The notes below the pieces were generated by a model. The model was not told the DNA's origin. It searched no databases and worked only from the letters and a program-made list of their open reading frames with translations. A DNA stretch of 64,000 nt from Halobacteriales archaeon YIM A00010 (lineage in GTDB: Archaea > Halobacteriota > Halobacteria > Halobacteriales > Haloarculaceae). The stretch covers positions 372,001 to 436,000 of the forward strand of contig JAKCFJ010000003.1 of the NCBI GenBank assembly GCA_025041175.1. Direction: 5' to 3'. Made by a program: the position numbers and the translations under genes. Each line of letters starts with the position of its first letter. Positions within the stretch are counted from its first letter, which is position 1. Shown piece by piece: positions 2,024 through 59,574 of the stretch.

Positions 2024-3957
2024 GCGACGACCGCGGGACAGTGTGTCCGTTCTGTGCCGTCGGCTGTCGGCTGACTCGCGACAGCGGGCGCGTTCGCGGC
2101 GTGGGTGGACCCGCGAACCCGGACGGGCGTCTCTGTGAGAAGGGGCTCCGGGCGTTCGACCCGATCGAGGACGACAACCGGCTCACCACGCCGTTAGTCC
2201 GTCGTGCTGGCGACCTCGTTCCGGTCTCGTGGGAGACGGCGCTCGATCGTGTCGTCAGGGGATTCGAGGAAATCGTCGTCGACCGTGGCCCGGACGCGTT
2301 GGCGTTCCTGGGGGCACCGCGCTGTACGAACGAAGAGAACTACCTCCTCCAGAAACTCGCTCGGACACTCGGAACGAACAACGTCGATAACCGGGCCCGA
2401 ACCTGTCACGCCGAGACGGCGCGAGCGGCGAAGCGTCGCCTCGGATTCCCGGCGACGACGAACTCGCTCGCCGACCTCGGACGGGCCGACGTGTTCCTCG
2501 TCGTTGGGGCGAACCCAGCCGCCAGACAGCCGGTTGCGTTCGACGGTGTGGTCCGGCCTGCCGTCAACGACGGCGCGACATTGGTCCACGTCGATCCACA
2601 CCGGAACGAAACGACGAGGCTTGCCGACCACCACGTTGCTCCGCGGCCCGACACTGACGCGCTCGTCGTCACGACGCTCTGTGCGCTCGTCGCCGGCGCC
2701 GAGGGTGTCGATGAGTCATTCGTCCGCGAGCGAACCACCGGCTTCGAGGCGTTCGCGGCGTCGTTGGGAGAACGTGACCTAGCAGAAGACGCCGACGACG
2801 CCGATGTCGACGAGGAGCGCCTACGCGATGTCGCGACCGTCGTGGCCGATGCCGACCGTGTGGCGGTACTGACGGGGACGGGAGCCGACGAGACGGCGAC
2901 CGCCGACGCCCTGCTGAACCTCCTCCTGCTGACTGGCAACCTCGGCCGACCCGGTGTGGGTCTGTACGTGCTCCGGGGTCTCAACAACGAGCAGGGTGCA
3001 ACCGATTCGGGGTGCGCTCCAGACTGGCTTCCCGGCCACGAACCGGTGACCGACGCGGACGCCCGCGAACGCGTTGCCAACGAGTGGGGAATCGCACCGC
3101 CGCCGACACCGGGGCGGCCCGAACGCGACCTCCTCTCCGAATTCGGTGACGAGATTGCTGGCGCGCTCGTCGTCGGAGAGAACCCTGCCGTCTCGAAGCG
3201 GGATCCCGAGTGGCTGGCCGACCGACTCGAAGCGCTGGATCTGCTCGTCGTACACGAACTGTTCCGGAACGAGACGACCGCCCACGCCGATGTCATCCTC
3301 CCGGTCGCAGCCGGCGTCGAGAAGAACGGCACCGTGACGAACCTCGACCGGCAGGTCCAGCGGTTACGCGCCGTTCACCAGCCACCGCCGTCGGTCCGGA
3401 CCGACTTCGAGGTTCTGCGTTCCCTGGGCTACCGTCTCGTTGGCGGCGGATTCGACTACGCCGGTCCAAACGAGGTGTTCGAAGAGCTACAGCGCGTCAC
3501 ACCGCCCTACAGTAGTCTCTCCTACGAGGAACTCGCGACATCGAGCCGTCGGTGGCCGACGAAAGGTGCAGACGACAGCACGTACCTCTACACCGAGTCG
3601 TTCTCGACCGACGACGGTCGCGCGCCGTTCGTGTCCGTCGGCGTGCAGTTGGCCGATTCACCCGACTGGAACGGCCTCCGCCTGGTCGTCGGAGACCGAG
3701 TGGGGGGCTTCACTTCGACCGCGGCCGACGGACCGGGCGACCGACTCACAATCCATCCCGACGACGCGGACGCCGAGGGCGTCGCTGACGGGGACAGGGT
3801 CGTCGTCTCGAACGACGCGGCGACGGTCGAGGCAACGGTCCACGTGAGCGAGGCGATCCGTCCCGGCGTGGTGTACCTCCACGCCGATACGGGCGACCCG
3901 CTCGTCAGGGGAGAGGATTCGACCGTTGGGATCGCACCGAAAACGACCGGGGCCTGA
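2020..3957 (+). CDS. molybdopterin oxidoreductase, formate dehydrogenase alpha-like, compact
   Basis: The 645-residue protein begins with a 4Fe-4S domain (Cys9, Cys12, Cys16, Cys39; CPFCAVGC then CEKG), followed by the bis-MGD domains and a C-terminal molydop-binding domain (about residues 555-640). Cys129 in the RARTCHAET segment is at the place of the Mo-ligating Cys/Sec of formate dehydrogenases. No Tat signal is present, so it should act in the cytoplasm. It is shorter than most FdhA proteins, with no extra N-terminal ferredoxin domains. It may be a second formate dehydrogenase or a related oxidoreductase. Its TGA stop shares its last base with the first base of a short inverted-repeat element at 3957. 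Confidence 0.82.
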   Translation: MSDDRGTVCPFCAVGCRLTRDSGRVRGVGGPANPDGRLCEKGLRAFDPIEDDNRLTTPLVRRAGDLVPVSWETALDRVVRGFEEIVVDRGPDALAFLGAPRCTNEENYLLQKLARTLGTNNVDNRARTCHAETARAAKRRLGFPATTNSLADLGRADVFLVVGANPAARQPVAFDGVVRPAVNDGATLVHVDPHRNETTRLADHHVAPRPDTDALVVTTLCALVAGAEGVDESFVRERTTGFEAFAASLGERDLAEDADDADVDEERLRDVATVVADADRVAVLTGTGADETATADALLNLLLLTGNLGRPGVGLYVLRGLNNEQGATDSGCAPDWLPGHEPVTDADARERVANEWGIAPPPTPGRPERDLLSEFGDEIAGALVVGENPAVSKRDPEWLADRLEALDLLVVHELFRNETTAHADVILPVAAGVEKNGTVTNLDRQVQRLRAVHQPPPSVRTDFEVLRSLGYRLVGGGFDYAGPNEVFEELQRVTPPYSSLSYEELATSSRRWPTKGADDSTYLYTESFSTDDGRAPFVSVGVQLADSPDWNGLRLVVGDRVGGFTSTAADGPGDRLTIHPDDADAEGVADGDRVVVSNDAATVEATVHVSEAIRPGVVYLHADTGDPLVRGEDSTVGIAPKTTGA

Positions 3958-4053
3958 TACTGTCGGACAGCGGTGATTGCGTATCGGCTGCTGGTGAATC
4001 GCCAGACAGCAGCTGGCTCGTCCGTCACACTCCGTCCGCAGGTCCGACGGTAT
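3957..4053. repeat. 97-bp MITE-like inverted-repeat element, family 1, copy 1
   Basis: The ends read ATACTGTCGGAC and GTCCGACGGTAT, an imperfect terminal inverted repeat. An inner dyad (GCTGCTG with CAGCAGC) would allow a long hairpin. It lies in the opposite orientation to copies 3, 4 and 6. It encodes nothing and overlaps the stop codon of the upstream molybdoenzyme by one base. Five related copies occur in the window. Confidence 0.85.
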
Positions 4054-4380
4054 CAGTCGTTCGTCCAGTTTCTCACAAGTTCGATCGATGTCCCACGCCT
4101 CCTCACCAGCGACTGGACAACTCGCCGGAAAACGACGATAGCGACTCCCTTTACAGTGAGTATGATTTCCGAAATCTCGGACGTGAGGTGGGATCTCGGG
4201 TAGAGATCGACGGATGAAGTCGAAAAGATGTGACGACAAGGTCTGATTTACACGGATGGACGAGTAAAACACTGGTGAAGGATCGTTAGTCCACGCCGTT
4301 CGTATCCGCATATATCGGGTCCGTACGATGGCGTCAGTTCTCCCGATACTGGTACTGAGGCGGTGTGTGCATCCCACGGG

Positions 4381-5064
4381 CTGGTTGGCCTCCTTGTGCA
4401 GATCGAGGATCTCGCTGTACTTGTCGCTTTCAAGATCTTCGACGGTCGACTCCAGGTCGGCGACAGTGTCCTCAAGTTCGTCACTTCGTTCCAGGAGTGT
4501 CTCGATCCGCTGTTCTCGCTGCTCGATCTTCTCGTCGATCGTATCGAGCTCGCTGTCCATCTGGTCGCGCTGGCGTTGTTTCTCCTGGTAGACGATCTTC
4601 TCGTCCTCCAGTTCGTCGATCTCCTCGTCGAGTTCGCGTTTCCTCCGTAAGCGATGTAATCTCCGCTTGGATCTCGTCGGTGTCGACCGGACGCATGATG
4701 AGTTCGTGCAGATCGTCGTTCCGGACGACCGCCCGTCGCGCCTCGTTCGATTCGAGTAAGAAGGCGAAGAGGGTAGCCAGTTCGGGGTCGTCGAGATACG
4801 GATCGCCACCGGTAACGACAGTGTTTCCGTTCCGTGTGAGTGTCCGCGTGTACGTCTCGTCGTCGATAGTCAGTTCGACTGAACCATTGTCCGCGTCGCT
4901 CTTCAGCGAGATCTCGTCGCTGCCGAGTCCCGTCTTGATGGCCCACAGCAGTGACGTCCGGTTCGTCGCATTCCGTCCCTCGAGTACTGTTACGCCGGGC
5001 CGGACCATTGTCTCCGTGTCGTCGATGCCACCGACTTCTTCGACCCAATCTGAATCATCACCAT
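4381..5064 (-). pseudogene. decayed paralog of the archaeal SMC-related ATPase
   Basis: Read on the minus strand, the fragments match the intact gene at 17100-19049: GGIDDTETMVRPGV and GRNATNRTSLL (Walker A region), YTRTLTRNGNTVV, LFAFLLESNEARRAV, ELIMRPVDTDEIQAEI, a coiled coil, then EILDLHKEANQ. At least two frameshifts are needed, one near 5045 and one near 4650. Compared with the intact copy about 200 residues of coiled coil, including the zinc-hook region, are missing before DLHKEANQ, and everything after that (second coiled coil, signature, Walker B) is gone. No rdfA-like partner is adjacent. This is a dead remnant of a second locus. Confidence 0.82.
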
Positions 5065-5712: not shown

Positions 5713-5809
5713 ATACTCTCGGACAGAGGTAATTGAATATCGGCTGCTGGTGAATTGCCAGACAGCAGCTGGCTCGTCCGTCGCACTCCGTCCGCAGGTC
5801 CGACAGTAT
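5713..5809. repeat. 97-bp MITE-like element, family 1, copy 2
   Basis: Ends read ATACTCTCGGAC and GTCCGACAGTAT, and the interior is nearly identical to copy 1 in the same orientation. It sits in the gap between the hypothetical gene ending at 5636 and the convergent deacetylase gene. Confidence 0.85.
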
Positions 5810-17099: not shown

Positions 17100-19049
17100 T
17101 CAGATGTCGGTGATGCGCTGATGGTCCTCGGGGAGTGCGGCGGCGTCTTCGGGCAGAAGGGCGACGATAAGGTAGTCGGCGTACGCTTGGAAGTGCTCGA
17201 TGAGGGTGGCGATGCGATCGGCATCGACGGCTTCGAGCGAGTCGAGCAGCATCACCGGCACCGTCTCGTGGAGTTCGTGGACGAGATAGCCCGCGAGCGC
17301 GAACACGAGACCAGTGACCTCGCGTTCGCTTTCACTGAGGTGCTCGATCGTGTCCTCGTAGGCGGTTCCTGAGCGAGTGGTGCGGACCACGTGCAGCTCG
17401 AAGACGCTCGTCTCGACGGTCCGCCGGCCTTCCCGCACGGTTTGTTCGGTGCGTTCGAGCCAGATCCGAGCGATGTTCTCGTAGTCGAGAATGTCGAGCA
17501 CCGTCTCCATGTGGTCGTTGAAATTCTCGATCGCCTCGGCTTCGATGCGTTCGATCCGGGTGCGGCGCTCCTCGAGTTCCGCTTGGACGGTGGCGCGTTG
17601 GTCCTCGAGATGAGCTTCTTGTTCCAAGCGCTCCTCGAGCCGCGCGATCTCCTCGGCAACGTCGTCCCGGTCGGATTCGAGCCGGCCGAGCTCGAATTCG
17701 AGTTGGTTGGCCTCTTTGTGCAGGTCGAGCAGTTCGGTGTAGTCTTCGCGTTCCTGCTGTTCGACGTCGGTTTCGAGGGACTCGATCGCGTCGGTAAGCG
17801 TCTCGCGTTCGTCCTGCAGCTCCTCGATTATCGCTTTGCGTTCGTCGAGTTCGTCGTCGATCTGGGCGAGCCGGCGCTCGATGCGCTCGCGCTGGTGGTG
17901 GTGATTCTCGAGCTCGTCCCGTTCCGCGATGCAGTCCTCAAGCTCGTCCCGAAGGTCGTTTACGTCCGAGAGTATTTCCGTGCGGAGGCTGCGCAGGCGG
18001 TCGAGGGTGGCGTCGATCTGATTGGTGTCTACGTCTGTTCCGCAGGTCCAGCAGGTGACGGTCTCGTCGGCCAGCAGCTGGTCGGTGACCGAGCCGTCCG
18101 TCTCCGTCGCGTCGGCAAGGACATCGAGGCGGCCGCTCTCATCGCCGTCGAGCATGTCTTCGTTGAATTGGATGATGCTCTGGAGCTCTGAGAGCTCGGC
18201 TTCGAGGTCCTCCTCGCGTGAGCGGAGTTGGTCGATCTGCTGGTCGAGCTCGGCGCGCTCGCCAGCGGGCGCATCGGGCAGCTCGTCCTGCTCGGCGACA
18301 AGGTCAGCGCGCTCTTCCCGGAGGGCAGCGAGGCTTTCCTGATGAGTGTCGATGTCGTAGCGGACGTCGTCGAGGCGTTCGCGCGTCTCTCGGAGCTCGT
18401 CGAGTGTTTCCTCGAGATCGGCTTTTTCAGCGCGGGTTTCATCGACACTCCGGTCGGCCGCTTCGATCTCGGCTTCTTTGGCTTCGAGTTCCTCGTGTTT
18501 GCCTTCAATCTGCGTGTCAAGACGTTGCCGTTCGGCTTCGAGATCGGGGAGATCACGCTTGAGCTCGTCGAGCTCATCGAGCTGCTCGTCGAGTTCTTGG
18601 CGTTCGGTATCGAGTTGCTCGATCTCGGCTTGGATCGCGTCAGTGTCGATGGGGCGCATAATGAGTTCCCGGAGATCGTCGCTGCGCGCAACGGCGCGGC
18701 GGGCCTCATTATTCTCGAGGAGGAACGCGAACAGATCGGCCACGGTGGCATCCTCGAGGTAGGGCTCACCGGTGGCGGTGACGGTCTCGTTCTGTCGGGT
18801 GAGCGTGCGCGTGTAGGTGGTGTCGTTAATCGTCAGCTCGACGTGTCCCTCGTCGGCGTCACCCTTGAGCGAGACGGCGTCGCTGCCGAACGCGGCCATC
18901 ACTGCTTGGAGCAGTGACGTACGGTTGGTGGCGTTCCGGCCGGTGAGCGCCGTCACACCGGGCGAAAATGCGAGGTCAGTCCGGTCGATGCCGCCGATAT
19001 TCTCGGCGCGGATCTGTATGTCTTTGGACGTGATCTGTTTAGCACTCAT
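17100..19049 (-). CDS. archaea-specific SMC-related (Rad50-like) coiled-coil ATPase
   Basis: The 649-residue protein has an N-terminal nucleotide-binding half with GRNATNRTSLL at the Walker A place (about residues 37-47), two long coiled coils, a Cys-x-x-Cys hook (TCWTCG, about residues 331-334) and a C-terminal half with LSESERE (ABC signature) and MLLDSLEAVD (Walker B, about residue 600). The Walker A Lys is replaced by Arg; the decayed paralog at 4381 shares this. Such genes pair with rdfA in haloarchaea; a role in DNA organisation or cell shape is inferred from that pairing. It has its own TATA box and follows rdfA by 267 bp. Confidence 0.83.
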   Translation of the reverse strand: MSAKQITSKDIQIRAENIGGIDRTDLAFSPGVTALTGRNATNRTSLLQAVMAAFGSDAVSLKGDADEGHVELTINDTTYTRTLTRQNETVTATGEPYLEDATVADLFAFLLENNEARRAVARSDDLRELIMRPIDTDAIQAEIEQLDTERQELDEQLDELDELKRDLPDLEAERQRLDTQIEGKHEELEAKEAEIEAADRSVDETRAEKADLEETLDELRETRERLDDVRYDIDTHQESLAALREERADLVAEQDELPDAPAGERAELDQQIDQLRSREEDLEAELSELQSIIQFNEDMLDGDESGRLDVLADATETDGSVTDQLLADETVTCWTCGTDVDTNQIDATLDRLRSLRTEILSDVNDLRDELEDCIAERDELENHHHQRERIERRLAQIDDELDERKAIIEELQDERETLTDAIESLETDVEQQEREDYTELLDLHKEANQLEFELGRLESDRDDVAEEIARLEERLEQEAHLEDQRATVQAELEERRTRIERIEAEAIENFNDHMETVLDILDYENIARIWLERTEQTVREGRRTVETSVFELHVVRTTRSGTAYEDTIEHLSESEREVTGLVFALAGYLVHELHETVPVMLLDSLEAVDADRIATLIEHFQAYADYLIVALLPEDAAALPEDHQRITDI

Positions 19050-19072
19050 TATTCTACGTTCCGACGCTACGC

Positions 19073-19078
19073 ATATAG
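19073..19078 (-). promoter_or_regulatory. TATA box of the SMC-related gene
   Basis: TATATG on the minus strand is centred about 26 nt before ATG 19049, implying a leaderless transcript separate from rdfA and supporting this start over the in-frame ATG at 19088. Confidence 0.5.
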
Positions 19079-19316
19079 CTGTGTTCATCCGCCTCGATTG
19101 CAGTGCCCGAGTGAATGAACTACCACATTATCAATGTTATAGAAATTACATCAGCATACAATGGTAGAGATAATTGAGAGATATCCGGTGGCAAACTCCA
19201 TATGGGCAATATTGGGAAAATAATATAATTTATATATTTTTATTATTAGTTACTGTTTGTTGGTTAGAGAACTGCGCCCTCATCTATGACGTCGGAGTTG
19301 TTGTCATAGTCTCAAC

Positions 19317-19955
19317 TTAGTCGAGATTGGCGCACTCGCACCCCCTCTGTTCGAGTAGGTCGCTCACCTGATACTGATTGCCGCAGTCCTCACAGAGGAC
19401 GCGCATGTCGAGTAGTATCTCGAACTCGCCGAGCGTGATGTGGTCTGCGTTCTGGAGGTGGGTGAGTTTACCGTCAGTCATGGTCGTCATGCGGCGTTTG
19501 AGCCGCCGAATGTTCGTGGCTTCGGTCGTAACTGGGTCGCTGTTGTCAGTCGGATAGGTGACGCCACGGACGCTGGTGAGATAGGTATGCACGGCTTGCC
19601 GGGAAACGAAGTCGGCGTCGAGTTGGTCGACATCGACGCCGGCTCGCTCCAATCGGCGGTGGGCCTGGGTGCGCGTTCCCGTGCTAACGTCATCGTCGGT
19701 GAGCAATCGGTAGGTGTTTTCGACTTCGCCGTCGAGAGGGTTCATACCGGCGTCACGCATGGCTGTGCGCAGCAACTGTTGGTTGACGTAGTCGGCTAGC
19801 TCGCGCAGACTGTACCCGTCATCAGTATCGTCGAGCCAGTAGTCTTCGATTCGCTCGCCCAACTCCTCGAGGTCGTACTCGTCGATCAGTCGACTAAGTT
19901 TGCTGTTGGACTGTCGCGTGTGATCCTCTTGTTCCGAATCGGACGTTGACGGCAT
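19317..19955 (-). CDS. rdfA: rod-determining factor RdfA family protein
   Basis: The 212-residue protein shows the RdfA family plan: an N-terminal region with KLSRLIDEYDLEELGE, a winged-helix-like middle (YSLRELADYVNQQLLRTAM, then RLLTDDDVSTGTRTQ), and a C-terminal zinc-ribbon-like end LCEDCGNQYQV...GCEC. RdfA of Haloferax volcanii is needed for rod-shaped cells. Its neighbour is the SMC-related ATPase, the usual genomic partner. Confidence 0.8.
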   Translation of the reverse strand: MPSTSDSEQEDHTRQSNSKLSRLIDEYDLEELGERIEDYWLDDTDDGYSLRELADYVNQQLLRTAMRDAGMNPLDGEVENTYRLLTDDDVSTGTRTQAHRRLERAGVDVDQLDADFVSRQAVHTYLTSVRGVTYPTDNSDPVTTEATNIRRLKRRMTTMTDGKLTHLQNADHITLGEFEILLDMRVLCEDCGNQYQVSDLLEQRGCECANLD

Positions 19956-19977
19956 AGCTCCATCTCCGTGTGTTTCC

Positions 19978-19984
19978 TATATAA
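19978..19984 (-). promoter_or_regulatory. TATA box of rdfA
   Basis: TTATATA on the minus strand is centred 26 nt upstream of ATG 19955, as in leaderless haloarchaeal promoters. Confidence 0.55.
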
Positions 19985-20052: not shown

Positions 20053-20148
20053 ATACTGTCGGACCTGCGGATGGAGTGCGACGGAATAGCCAGCTGCTGT
20101 CTAGCGGTTCACAGCATCCGATATTCAATCATCTCTGTCCGACAGTAT
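20053..20148. repeat. 96-bp MITE-like element, family 1, copy 3
   Basis: Ends ATACTGTCGGAC and GTCCGACAGTAT... read inward as a near-perfect inverted repeat; the interior is in the orientation of copies 4 and 6. It lies about 100 bp upstream of rdfA. The following 20149-20324 has no gene. Confidence 0.83.
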
Positions 20149-20944: not shown

Positions 20945-21056
20945 TATACACCCGGACACGATTCATGTAACGATACGACGCCTGATTGGCCGGGAACAAG
21001 CCTGGTGTCATGGATGCGGTCATCTGCATGTCGATCTATTCGTGTCCGGGTGTATA
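20945..21056. repeat. 112-bp MITE-like element, family 3, copy 1
   Basis: Ends TATACACCCGGACACGA and TCGTGTCCGGGTGTATA form a perfect 17-bp inverted repeat. It is in reverse orientation relative to the copies at 26054 and 42333. It starts 13 bp after the stop codon of the formylglycine-generating enzyme. Confidence 0.88.
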
Positions 21057-21069
21057 GCACTGATCCCGA

Positions 21070-25204: not shown

Positions 25205-26074
25205 ATGTCTTGGTCGTTTGAACGCGTTGCTGGCCCGTTTGGATTCACCGAAGGGCCAGCGTGGGACGGGGAAGCGCTACTGTTCACCGACATTCCGAAC
25301 GATCGTATTCTTCGGTATCATCCAGTGACCGGCGCGTGTGAGGAGTACGCGACCGATACGAAGGCAGCGAACGGGCTGAAATTCGGCCCCGACGGCGATC
25401 TGTACGCGTGCCAAGGTCCGCCCGGCCAGCAAGTCGTCCGGTACGACGAGGCGGGACGAGAACACTCGGTCGTAAGCGAATACGATGGAGCACCGCTCAA
25501 TAGCCCGAACGATCTCGCGTTCGATGGCCGAGGTCGGCTGTGGTTCACTGATCCCCGGTACGGCGATACGTCGAATCTCCCTCAGGAGTACGAGGCGGTC
25601 TACCGTGCTGATCCACGCGGTGACGGCGAGTGGGACATCGAGCGCGTGATAACTGATACGACCAAGCCGAACGGCATCCTCGCTTCGCCTGACTGTGAGT
25701 GGCTGTACGTCGCACAGTCGGACCCGGATCCAGCAGGGGCAAGCGAGCTACGCGCGTATCCACTCGATAGCGGCCAACTCGGAGACTATCGGGTGCTCCA
25801 CAATTTCGATCCACACCGTGGAATCGATGGGATGTGTTTCGATGGAGATGGGAACATTGTCGCTACAGCCGGCTCGGACGAGAGCGGCCCTGGGCCAATG
25901 CTCTACGTCTTTGCACCATCGGGACGGGTGCTCGAAACCCACCCCTATCCGGCCTCAGCGCCGACGAACTGTGCATTTGGCGAACACGACCTTCGGACAC
26001 TGTACGTCACGGGCGACGGCTCGTTGTACCGAGCGCGCACCGGACGACGAGGCTATACACCCGGACACGAATAG
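25205..26074 (+). CDS. SMP-30/gluconolactonase family protein
   Basis: The 289-residue six-bladed propeller has the family signatures FTEGPAWDGEALLFTDIPND (metal-binding Glu), ANGLKFGPDGDLYACQG, LNSPNDLAFDGRGRLWFTDP (metal-binding Asn), TKPNGILASPDCEWLYVAQ and IDGMCFDGDGN (metal-binding Asp). It should hydrolyse a sugar lactone. The last residues, YTPGHE, and the TAG stop are encoded by the left end of an inverted-repeat element, so the native C-terminus has been replaced. Confidence 0.83.
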   Translation: MSWSFERVAGPFGFTEGPAWDGEALLFTDIPNDRILRYHPVTGACEEYATDTKAANGLKFGPDGDLYACQGPPGQQVVRYDEAGREHSVVSEYDGAPLNSPNDLAFDGRGRLWFTDPRYGDTSNLPQEYEAVYRADPRGDGEWDIERVITDTTKPNGILASPDCEWLYVAQSDPDPAGASELRAYPLDSGQLGDYRVLHNFDPHRGIDGMCFDGDGNIVATAGSDESGPGPMLYVFAPSGRVLETHPYPASAPTNCAFGEHDLRTLYVTGDGSLYRARTGRRGYTPGHE

Positions 26075-26165
26075 ATCGATATGCAGGTGACCGCATCCAT
26101 GACACCAGGCTTGGTCCCGGCCGATCAGGCGACGTATCGTTACATGAATCGTGTCCGGGTGTATA
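26054..26165. repeat. 112-bp MITE-like element, family 3, copy 2
   Basis: Perfect TATACACCCGGACACGA terminal inverted repeats. Its left end overlaps the final codons of the lactonase gene and supplies the stop; its right end is 72 bp before the next gene's ATG. The interior is nearly identical to the copy at 42333. Confidence 0.88.
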
Positions 26166-26237
26166 TCTCGGAGAACCACCGATCGATCCGTGACTCGGTA
26201 ACAAAAAGCTATTGAACCGTCTTATACACGTATTCGT

Positions 26238-37496: not shown

Positions 37497-39925
37497 GCAC
37501 GCCCGATTCCCCGACCGAACGTGATGATCCGGACGACACGATCGACAGACAGGACCATCCGAGGGAGTGGGACGAACCGGAGAACAACCGGACGGTCCCA
37601 TCGGAACGAGAGAACATCAACACGGATACAGAGAAGAACGATGCGCGGAAGATAGTCACTGGAGAGGCTCGCTACACTGCTGACTACCACGAACGGTTCC
37701 CCGAACTCGCGGAGGGGACCGTCATTAGAAGTGACATTCCTCACGGCTACGTCACGGACATCGATACGAGCGCGGCCGAGGGGATGGATGGCGTCTACGC
37801 CGTCATCACGCCGTGGGACGACGAGGTGCCCGACAAGCTGTACTCCAGCTCCGGCCAGTCCTATCCGGAGCCGAGTCCGTGGGACATGAACGTTCTCCGC
37901 AAACACGTCCGGTACGTCGGCGATCCCATCGCGGCTGTCGCCGCCGAAGACAGCGAGACAGCCGATCGGGCAGCACGGACGGTTCAGGTCGAGTACGAGG
38001 AACTCGACGGCGTTTTCGATCCCGGGTCTGCGACGAACGAGGACGCGCCACAACTGTTCGAACCGGACGATGTCGAGAACAAGCAGTCGGGCGCGGAGTA
38101 CGAGCGGAACCTCGAATCGCATTTCGAGGGTGAAATCGGTGATGTCGACGCTGCCATCGAGCAGGCTGATGAGGAGCGCGTGGTCGAAACAGAGTGGGAG
38201 ACGCCCTACCAATCCCACTGTGTCCCCGAGCCCCACACGACCATCGCGTACACGGATGAGGACAATCGTCATTCGTTCATCACCGCAACACAGGTTCCGT
38301 TTCATACGCGCCGGCAGTTGGCGCATCTGTTCGACGTTCCCATCCGGGATATCCGTGTCACAAAGCCGCGTATCGGCGCGGGGTTCGGATCGAAACAGGA
38401 GATGGCTATCGAGCCGATCGCGTTCGCGCTCCACCTGAAGGCGGGCGTGCCGGTCAAACTGGAAATGACGCGCCAGGAAGAGTTCACGGCGTTGCGGTTC
38501 CGTCACCCGATGCGAATGCGGATGCGGACAGCCGTCTCCGAGAACGGCGAACTGACGGCGATGGACCTCTACGCGCTGTCGAACTCCGGGGCGTACGGAA
38601 CGCACGGTATGACCGTTGCGAACAACGTCGGCACGAAGCCGTTGCCTCTCTATCCACGCGTCCCGAACGTCCGTTTCGAGGGTGATGTCGTCCACACGAA
38701 TCTCCCGATGGGGGCCGCAATGCGCGGGTACGGCGCTCCGCAGGGTCACTTCGCCGTCGAGGCACACATGGACGAAGTCGCTCGACAACTCGACCGCGAC
38801 CCGATCGCGTTCCGCAGAGATCACGTGGTTCGAGCGGGAGATCTCGTCAGAAATTCGGCGATTCTCAAGGACGGCGATCGGTTCGCACGGCGGATTCGCT
38901 CCTGTGGCATCGAGGAATGCATCGATCGCGGCAAGGACGCGATCGGCTACGACGATCTCGAACAGCCTGAACAATCCCACCGACACCGCGGCGTCGGAAT
39001 GGCGTTGATCGCCCAAGGGAGCGGCGTCTCGGGCAAGGAACTCGGAGCCGCCCAGATCATGATGAACGAGGACGGCTCATTCCACTTGCAGGTCGGTGGC
39101 GTCGACACCGGCACCGGCACCGATACGACCTTCAGCCAGATTTCGGCCGAAGTCCTCGGTTGTGCTCCGGAAGATGTCGTCGTCCTCTCCTCGGATACGG
39201 ACCTGACACCGTTCGACTACGGTGCGTACGCCTCCTCGACCACGTACATCAGCGGAATGGCAGTGAAAAAGGCCGCCGAGGACGCAAAAGAGCGCCTCCT
39301 TGACTGGGGTTCGAGGATGCTAGACGAACCAGTCTCAGTTCTCGAAACCGGCAGCGGTGAAATCTATAGCGAGGAGACCGGTGCGTCCGTGACGCTGGAA
39401 GAGGTCGGCTACGAGGCGATCTACGGTGATGAGAAGCGCGAGCAGATCCTGGGGAGGAGTAGCCACTCCACCGATGAGAGTCCACCACCGTTCGGTGCGC
39501 AGTTCGTCGACGTGACTGTCGACGAGAAAACCGGAGAATATGAACTCAACAAACTGGCATTTGCTGCGGACTGTGGCGTCGCCATCAACCCCCCACAGGT
39601 CGAGGGCCAGATCGAGGGTGGCGAACACATGAGCCTCGAGTACGCGACCAGCGGGAGCCTCGACTTCGAGGAGGGACAGCCTAAGACACACGGCTTCCGA
39701 CAGTACGGTATGCCGCGAACCACCGACCACCCGCCGATGGAGACGCTCCTGGTCGAAACCCACGAACCGACCGGACCGTTCGGCGCGAAGTCCATCGCCG
39801 AACTTCCCACCAACGGCGTCCCGCCAGCGCTCAGCAACGCGATCCGCGACGCGGTTGGCATCCGGATCAACACGCTACCCATCACCGCTGAGAGGATCAA
39901 GCAGGCCCTGGACCATACCGACTGA
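37493..39925 (+). CDS. molybdenum hydroxylase large subunit (xanthine dehydrogenase / CO dehydrogenase family)
   Basis: The 810-residue protein has an acidic N-terminal extension (about 50 residues), then the a/b-hammerhead domain and the Mo-binding domains. Visible blocks are IGAGFGSKQEMAIEP, AAMRGYGAPQGHFAVE, GGVDTGTGTDT and the C-terminal FGAKSIAELPTNG with the catalytic Glu. The substrate is not fixed; the nearby adenine deaminase and nucleoside hydrolase favour a purine such as hypoxanthine. No FAD (CoxM-type) subunit is adjacent. The TGA stop shares its last base with a palindromic element. Confidence 0.83.
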   Translation: MSTPDSPTERDDPDDTIDRQDHPREWDEPENNRTVPSERENINTDTEKNDARKIVTGEARYTADYHERFPELAEGTVIRSDIPHGYVTDIDTSAAEGMDGVYAVITPWDDEVPDKLYSSSGQSYPEPSPWDMNVLRKHVRYVGDPIAAVAAEDSETADRAARTVQVEYEELDGVFDPGSATNEDAPQLFEPDDVENKQSGAEYERNLESHFEGEIGDVDAAIEQADEERVVETEWETPYQSHCVPEPHTTIAYTDEDNRHSFITATQVPFHTRRQLAHLFDVPIRDIRVTKPRIGAGFGSKQEMAIEPIAFALHLKAGVPVKLEMTRQEEFTALRFRHPMRMRMRTAVSENGELTAMDLYALSNSGAYGTHGMTVANNVGTKPLPLYPRVPNVRFEGDVVHTNLPMGAAMRGYGAPQGHFAVEAHMDEVARQLDRDPIAFRRDHVVRAGDLVRNSAILKDGDRFARRIRSCGIEECIDRGKDAIGYDDLEQPEQSHRHRGVGMALIAQGSGVSGKELGAAQIMMNEDGSFHLQVGGVDTGTGTDTTFSQISAEVLGCAPEDVVVLSSDTDLTPFDYGAYASSTTYISGMAVKKAAEDAKERLLDWGSRMLDEPVSVLETGSGEIYSEETGASVTLEEVGYEAIYGDEKREQILGRSSHSTDESPPPFGAQFVDVTVDEKTGEYELNKLAFAADCGVAINPPQVEGQIEGGEHMSLEYATSGSLDFEEGQPKTHGFRQYGMPRTTDHPPMETLLVETHEPTGPFGAKSIAELPTNGVPPALSNAIRDAVGIRINTLPITAERIKQALDHTD

Positions 39926-40021
39926 TACTGTCGGACCTGCGGACGGAGTGCGACGGACTAGCCAGCTGCTGTCTGGCGGGTCACCAGCAGCCGAGACGCG
40001 ACCATCTCTGTCCGACAGTAT
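39925..40021. repeat. 97-bp MITE-like element, family 1, copy 4
   Basis: Ends ATACTGTCGGAC and GTCCGACAGTAT, perfect 12-bp inverted repeat. It lies between two convergent genes and overlaps the stop codon of the large subunit by one base. Confidence 0.86.
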
Positions 40022-42280: not shown

Positions 42281-42332
42281 CGTACGGATCGTAGTCACAG
42301 CGACTACACACCTCGTAGCAACGGAGGGTTCC

Positions 42333-42444
42333 TATACACCCGGACACGAATAGATCAACATGCAGGTGACCGCATCCATGACAACAGGATTGTTCCCGGC
42401 CAATCAGGCGACGTATCGTTACATGAATCGTGTCCGGGTGTATA
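42333..42444. repeat. 112-bp MITE-like element, family 3, copy 3
   Basis: Perfect 17-bp ends TATACACCCGGACACGA / TCGTGTCCGGGTGTATA; same length as the other two copies and nearly identical to the one at 26054. It lies 52 bp from the truncated family 2 copy in a gene-free region. Confidence 0.88.
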
Positions 42445-43224
42445 TCTCCGAATGAGTTATACACACTAAGGGTGTTAATAACGTGTGGTCTCGATCCGCA
42501 GATCGGACCTGATTAACAGCCATCATCGCTGCTACAGTTCGACCACACTTCGTTCGAGGGATTACAAACGTACATCTGTAATCAGAACACGGATTGGTTC
42601 GTCGCCCTCCGGTATGGCTGATCGAACGGAACCCGTCTACTCTCCGCCTGGTGGCGAACTCCACCACTGTCTCGGCTATCGGTTTGCGGGCATCGATGCC
42701 CGTGCTGGGTCGATCGTCCGGCGATGAAACCTGATAGCTGCACGAGAGTCCTTCTCTCGTGAACAGCGAAACGACTAGGATCCATGACTGCCTCCCTCCT
42801 GAAAACGGTCCGGAGTGACAAGATGTGCTGCTGTAACCAAACGGTAGATTATAATAAATACATATATTGTTCGTACGTAGTGAACTCCGTGAACTGTACT
42901 GAATGGGATGAGTCGTGGGAACTGCTTCACTTGCTTAAATGATAGATATACCACCGTCGATTAATTCGGTGATTCTTCATTCACGTTCGACTGTTCCGTT
43001 ACCCAGGAGTAAATACTCGTATCGAGCGCGGCGATATCACACACCAATGTTTACTATCAGTAAACAAACTCTTAGAACACCTGTATCACCAAGTGAACAA
43101 CCCCGAACCTCATTCTCAAAGCCATATTTCAAAAAAGTCATTATTATTCAGAAATTACTATATAGTAAGAGTATATCATACTAGAACGGCCAAGGAGGAT
43201 TGGGGACACAGTACGTGGTTCAGC
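42445..43224. other. gene-free region upstream of the CBM-PKD gene
   Basis: A short plus-strand frame at 42615-42727 (MADRTEPVYSPPGGELHHCL) has some coding character but no recognised family and may be a scrap. Bases 42840-43170 are AT-rich. Confidence 0.35.
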
Positions 43225-52317: not shown

Positions 52318-52418
52318 ATACTGTCGGACAGAGCTACGGACGGATTGAGCCGGAATATCCATCTGCTGTCTGGCGGTTCACCAGCATTCGATATTCGATC
52401 ACCTCTGTCCGACAGTAT
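52318..52418. repeat. 101-bp MITE-like element, family 1, copy 5
   Basis: Ends ATACTGTCGGACAGAG and CTCTGTCCGACAGTAT form a perfect 16-bp inverted repeat. The interior is more diverged than in the other copies. It ends 6 bp before the stop codon of the convergent tctA-like gene. Confidence 0.85.
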
Positions 52419-59477: not shown

Positions 59478-59574
59478 ATACTGTCGGACCTGCGAACGGA
59501 GTGCCACGGACGAGCCAGCTGCTGTCCGGCGATTCACCGGCAGCCGATACGCAATCACCGCTGTCCGACAGTAT
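59478..59574. repeat. 97-bp MITE-like element, family 1, copy 6
   Basis: Ends ATACTGTCGGAC and GTCCGACAGTAT. Its right end overlaps the 3' end of the minus-strand FAD/Fe-S gene and encodes the last residues (TVGQR) and the stop codon of that protein. Confidence 0.86.

Follow-up and report, generated by a model that had tools for sequence, protein, structure and literature searches.

The window analyzed here is a stretch of 64,000 nucleotides from contig JAKCFJ010000003.1 of the Halobacteriales archaeon YIM A00010. It carries the gene rdfA and, downstream of it on the same minus strand, a gene for an SMC-like protein of the Sph/ASRP family. The features of this gene pair are the following:

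19317-19955, minus strand: rdfA, 212 aa
17100-19049, minus strand: ASRP (Sph-family SMC-like) gene, 649 aa when read from the inner ATG at 19049, its likely start
17100-19088, minus strand: longer ASRP frame, 662 aa from an upstream start at 19088
19977-19984, minus strand: putative TATA-like site upstream of rdfA
19072-19078, minus strand: putative TATA-like site preceding the inner ATG of the ASRP gene
18941-18915, minus strand: Walker A, GRNATNRTS, with Asn at the second Gly and Arg at the Lys position
18042-18053, minus strand: zinc hook CWTC between the coiled coils, residue 346 of 662
17325-17339, minus strand: ABC signature, LSESE
17223-17255, minus strand: Walker B, VMLLDSLEAVD, with Ser at the catalytic Glu position and a Glu two residues further on

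The initial annotation placed rdfA beside an SMC-related ATPase-type gene, and profile scores confirm both assignments. RdfA matches the Pfam model PF21811 over its full length (positions 1-195 of 195) with 252 bits against a cut-off of 27, and the 662-aa frame scores 692.8 bits against NCBIfam NF045487 (archaea-specific SMC-related protein, ASRP; cut-off 300). The same protein falls outside Rad50 (best model score 62.7 bits, curated cut-off 1087) and outside the canonical SMC proteins (49.8 bits against a curated cut-off of 567.35). The predicted Cys-x-x-Cys hook and signature were recovered in the letters themselves (CWTC, LSESE), and the coiled coils in an AlphaFold2 model of the 649-aa form (mean pLDDT 88.1), where long helices flank the zinc hook on both sides. 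The Walker A motif is N-terminal and the signature and Walker B are C-terminal, the order expected of an ASRP. Smc and Rad50 heads are the PDB structures that match the modeled head (Z about 22); a sequence search for solved relatives gave an unrelated chain as its best hit (E 0.017) and Rad50 at E 0.02. RdfA is built of a helical N-terminal part, a long helix and a zinc-ribbon-like CxxC...CxC C-terminal end, three of whose four cysteines are nearly invariant in an alignment of 91 rows. Its AlphaFold2 model has a mean pLDDT of 91.5. No solved relative of RdfA emerged from a sequence search, and no convincing match to a known fold was obtained, the best Foldseek match having an E of 1.1 and the best VIA-align match a Z of 5.1 to cytochrome P450s, which is within noise for helical models. 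The separate TATA boxes proposed for the two genes also have counterparts, since a TATA-like site, putative and read from the sequence, lies about 22-29 nt from the ATG of each (23-29 nt for the inner ASRP start). The present pair is a haloarchaeal cell-shape gene pair of published type; the pairing of rdfA with Sph genes, the family and the role in rod shape have already been described and are not new here.

The ATP site is where the protein departs from its better known relatives. The usual Walker A consensus is GxxxxGK[ST]. The reported GRNATNRTS, with Arg at the Lys position, was confirmed, with the addition that Asn also replaces the second Gly. The Walker B motif had been described as similar to that of Rad50, a description that did not hold: VMLLDSLEAVD has Ser where the Rad50 control (LVLDEPTVFLD, containing LDEP) has the catalytic Glu. 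As judged from these motifs, the loss of the catalytic Glu had been missed in the earlier reading. The combination of a canonical Walker A Lys and a Walker B Asp-Glu pair, which marks Rad50, is consequently missing from the window ASRP (GRNATNRTS, LLDSLE).

A second ASRP-related sequence lies elsewhere in the window:

4377-5047, minus strand: ASRP relic, an incomplete copy of the contig C4 paralog, in segments 4625-5047 and 4377-4644

The relic has an internal deletion, lacks its 3' end and has no rdfA alongside. It does carry GRNATNRTS, at 4978, as had been noted; the further claim that the change is for that reason ancestral did not survive. DNA identity between the relic and the C4 paralog is 93.6% across 425 bp and 97.8% across 268 bp, and the relic, as a 94-98% copy of another paralog, is uninformative on ancestry and was rejected as proof that the Arg is ancestral.

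The distribution of the unusual residues was followed in an alignment of 156 distinct ASRP-like proteins, each 550 aa or longer. They come from genome samples that overlap, at the levels of family (37 genomes), order (59) and phylum (196), and from 13 of 14 named loci. The alignment leaves out ORFs below 550 aa (fragments and cut copies), the SMC/Rad50 controls (L046 and L047), a cut copy (L015), a broken frame (L061), a partial match over the cut-off (G054:C41) and two sub-cut-off fragments; neither ClsN of Sulfolobus nor Sph3 of Haloferax volcanii is among its rows, and three rows (L173-L175) are Rad50-like by their LSGG signature. The zinc-hook CxxC is present in 155 of the 156 rows. At the Walker A Lys position Arg was found in 115 rows and Lys in 41, the latter comprising 22 haloarchaeal GKS proteins (for example GSNWQGKS, with an LSEG signature), 8 haloarchaeal NK[TS] proteins (for example GPNASNKT), 8 non-haloarchaeal ASRPs and the 3 Rad50-like rows. 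The idea that Arg might be universal in the family, for which a family alignment had been proposed as the check, was thus not borne out: Lys occupies the same column in 30/145 haloarchaeal rows and in 8/8 non-haloarchaeal ASRP rows, and these members, with Lys or a fully canonical Walker A, are what had been named beforehand as the counter-evidence. The 8 non-haloarchaeal rows come from the same phylum, outside the order, and four of them score 281-298 bits, 2-19 bits under the NF045487 cut-off of 300.

At Walker B, all 115 Arg-type rows have Ser in place of the catalytic Glu, and Glu is absent in 145/145 haloarchaeal rows; the 30 of these with Lys have Gly (15), Ala (5), Arg (3), Gln (3), Ser (3) or Asn (1). 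Because Glu is also missing from every haloarchaeal Lys-type row, its loss is wider than the change from Lys to Arg. The 8 non-haloarchaeal ASRPs have Glu (5), Asn (2) or Asp (1), and the four that exceed the cut-off comprise three with Asp-Glu and one with Asp-Asp. On a quick tree of 95 rows the Lys/Arg position changed at least four times; the tree, with strong support for only 14/92 inner branches and with long branches to the outgroup, fixes neither the root nor the direction of the change.

These deviations might in principle come from decay or from errors in the sequence of this single genome, where a decayed copy does lie in the same window. The family alignment refutes this, leaving it virtually no probability, as 115 distinct rows share these residues with named Halobacterium and Haloferax records. 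Sph2 of Halobacterium salinarum R1 has GRNATGRTS and LLDSLEAID, and the ASRPs of Haloferax mediterranei and Haloferax gibbonsii have GRNATNRTS and LDSLEAID; an annotated rdfA adjoins each of the three. A Haladaptatus ASRP has the same motifs as these named relatives; neither the annotation nor the profile shows an rdfA in the 2.5 kb around it. Arg43, the signature residues Ser572 and Ser574, Asp603, Ser604, Glu606, Asp609 and Arg612 are invariant in the 115 Arg-type rows, whose pairwise identity falls to 26% with a median of 47%. Because key residues are invariant at such a median identity, the Arg-type ATP site is, on the evidence of the alignment, maintained and not decayed.

How such a site would handle nucleotide can be read in several ways. 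The protein could be a true but rewired ATPase, in which Arg43 contacts the phosphates and Glu606, three residues after the Walker B Asp, stands in for the lost Glu and polarizes the water. The presence of Arg43, Ser604 and Glu606 in 115/115 Arg-type rows fits a working catalytic set, and Asp603 and the signature Ser are kept; haloarchaeal Lys-type ASRPs, however, are also without the Asp-Glu pair, and 25/30 of them also lack Glu at the 606 position. This reading is considered unlikely, at perhaps one chance in a few. It has been weighed against another, still less probable one, in which the protein is a pseudo-ATPase that makes no use of nucleotide and keeps its head for folding and dimerization, as a structural, intermediate-filament-like coiled-coil shape element. 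Key residues of both Walker motifs are indeed lost, and a cytoskeleton-like role has been suggested for Sph3 (PMC10869688), but the retention of the signature, the Walker B Asp and the Walker A residues Asn39 and Ser45 is hard to explain without a ligand. Rather than either of these, the window Sph may work as an ATP-gated switch and not as an ordinary ATPase.

The link between ASRP and RdfA has both published and new support. Across 24 haloarchaeal genomes, 42/54 RdfA and 42/50 SMC-like proteins were reported to be adjacent, and in Haloferax volcanii deletion of either rdfA or sph3 leaves disks, both genes being needed for rods (PMC10869688). In the present survey, rdfA lies within 1.6 kb of 126/145 haloarchaeal ASRPs, and none was seen within the flank examined for the remaining 19/145; flanks at many loci were about 1.4-1.5 kb, 1 kb being accepted as enough. 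By type, the neighbor was found for 99/115 Arg, 5/8 NK and 22/22 GKS haloarchaeal rows, and for 2/11 other rows. The view of Arg as a family-wide or RdfA-linked feature was accordingly rejected, 27/30 haloarchaeal Lys-type ASRPs adjoining rdfA. Among 128 pairs, rdfA is upstream on the same strand in 93, downstream in 14, convergent in 12 and divergent in 9, and since all four orientations occur the adjacency is independent of one shared promoter. Across 59 genomes of the order, with thresholds of an E up to 1e-70 for ASRP and of the profile cut-off for RdfA, 40 have both proteins, one has ASRP only, none has RdfA only and 18 have neither, counts that come from related genomes and are not independent events. 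The ASRP-only genome is 81% complete, and 2 of the 18 genomes with neither have partial RdfA matches of 20-22 bits, below the cut-off.

The two proteins also show congruent histories. Over the 128 true pairs their distances correlate with an r of 0.78, whereas 1000 shuffles of partners within genomes averaged 0.55 and did not exceed 0.67. In 29 of the 31 genomes with several pairs the true pairing has the top score, by a margin over the mean of all pairings of less than 0.02 in 11 of those 29. Congruent trees point to cassettes and not to contact, and joint inheritance of neighbors alone could explain them. Fusion of the two genes was considered as a sign of contact and rejected, as no ORF of the loci examined matched both profiles. 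Three genomes of one genus (G049, G074 and G089; loci L071, L072, L080, L132 and L133) have two or three full ASRPs and a single RdfA, and are natural cases of Sph proteins without an adjacent partner of their own. Taken together, the proposed link to RdfA stands on published synteny, shared loss of rods, co-occurrence and tree congruence, and Arg as the key to the pairing is not supported.

Outside the haloarchaea, nine genomes with ASRP-like matches were searched for RdfA. An RdfA-like gene was present in two, one scoring above the cut-off with 35.2 bits and one below it with 25.3 bits; no credible RdfA was found in the other seven, which indicates that ASRPs can work without RdfA. In these two genomes (G110 and G247; loci L101 and L102) the RdfA-like gene lies directly downstream of an ASRP with an intact GKT and an Asp-Glu pair. 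This arrangement, with two weak RdfA-like matches as its basis, suggests that ASRP and RdfA were paired before the catalytic Glu was lost.

The genome of YIM A00010 itself has five ASRPs that are intact, all of them with an rdfA no more than 1 kb away, besides two additional full RdfA genes and two fragments of RdfA. In the set of rows compared, both window proteins have their nearest relatives in a single pair from another family (L066; ASRP 68%, RdfA 51%), which is closer to them than congeners are, a likeness that fits transfer of the pair as a unit. No match was obtained in 50,697 phage records at an E of 1e-5. An ASRP-like match was present in 114 plasmid records at an E of 1e-20, the organisms listed being haloarchaea, which implies that the family is common on secondary replicons. 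The window also contains a dispersed repeat of about 97 bp (3957-4053, 5713-5809, 20053-20148, 39925-40021, 52318-52418 and 59478-59574), placed just upstream of rdfA and on either side of the relic. Its copy at 20053 is MITE-like, with 13-nt perfect terminal inverted repeats. The core pattern of this repeat turns up 72 times across the genome when up to 3 mismatches are allowed; a reversed control gives 0. Another dispersed repeat, about 113-120 bp long, is found at 20945-21057, 26053-26172 and 42332-42451, in copies 94-96% identical.

The reading preferred here is that of an ATP-gated, weakly or non-hydrolyzing zinc-hook dimer working with RdfA, to which roughly even chances are given. The ASRP is a zinc-hook, coiled-coil protein of SMC/Rad50 type with a remodeled ATP site (Arg for Lys, Asn for Gly, Ser for Glu). 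Nucleotide is presumably still bound, because the signature, the Walker B Asp and the Walker A Asn and Ser are kept, and the signature motif would let two heads come together; hydrolysis is presumably absent or very slow because the Walker A Lys and the Walker B Glu are missing. The protein would then act as an ATP-gated clamp or scaffold, with RecF as a likeness, and RdfA would be its dedicated partner, as genetics and gene order suggest. Against such a switch, hydrolysis could still be possible with Arg, and the invariant Glu606 may have assumed the catalytic role. The pair may act on cell shape and motility, on the exchange of DNA between genome copies, or on both, like its Haloferax relatives: genetics there connects the proteins with rods and swarming and with gene conversion among genome copies (PMC10869688, PMC11276520), and loss of any of the four Sph proteins lowers gene-conversion survival (PMC11276520). 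Sph3 has been reported to be needed for plate shape (PMC13286277), in contrast to reports that the sph3 deletion forms no rods (PMC10869688, PMC11276520).

More broadly, haloarchaeal ASRP-RdfA may represent a branch of the SMC superfamily that does without ordinary ATP hydrolysis and depends on ATP-gated head engagement at a remodeled Arg/Ser/Glu site, the Glu having been lost after the split from Asp-Glu relatives, two genomes of which carry an RdfA-like neighbor; this wider proposal is judged somewhat less probable than its negation. The general view is that SMC-type machines need ATP hydrolysis. In a genetically tractable archaeon, the haloarchaeal Sph proteins influence cell shape, motility and gene conversion with an ATP site that lacks supposedly essential residues, so that the question of whether an SMC-like protein can act without hydrolysis becomes testable in Haloferax volcanii by site changes, with the Lys-type paralogs, which adjoin rdfA too, as a natural contrast. 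As to precedence, neither lysine nor arginine is mentioned by name in the main text of PMC9389158, and no report of the Arg/Ser site appeared at the level of titles and abstract openings; the 2019 coalescin paper and the 1997 and 2002 Halobacterium papers were outside that search and may hold an earlier notice.

Compared with known systems, the window protein shares with the Sph/ASRP family (NF045487; PMC9389158) the zinc hook, the coiled coil and the N- and C-terminal head motifs. It shows no difference at the family level, its Arg/Ser site being the commonest haloarchaeal state (115/145 rows). The rdfA-sph3 locus of Haloferax volcanii likewise has rdfA next to an SMC-like gene (PMC10869688), whereas the present genome has five cassettes, any of which may serve cell shape. 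With Rad50 it has the zinc hook, the coiled coils and the head fold in common, but its Walker A Lys and Walker B catalytic Glu are replaced and its neighbor is rdfA. RecF is not known to have a long coiled coil or a zinc hook. Like the ASRP, RecF has a head of the SMC superfamily without the Asp-Glu pair, Asp-Asp standing in its place, and it has been described as an ATP-driven dimer of negligible hydrolysis, with no ATPase activity seen (PMC5794780). Unlike the window ASRP, it keeps the Walker A Lys (Lys36; PMC5794780).
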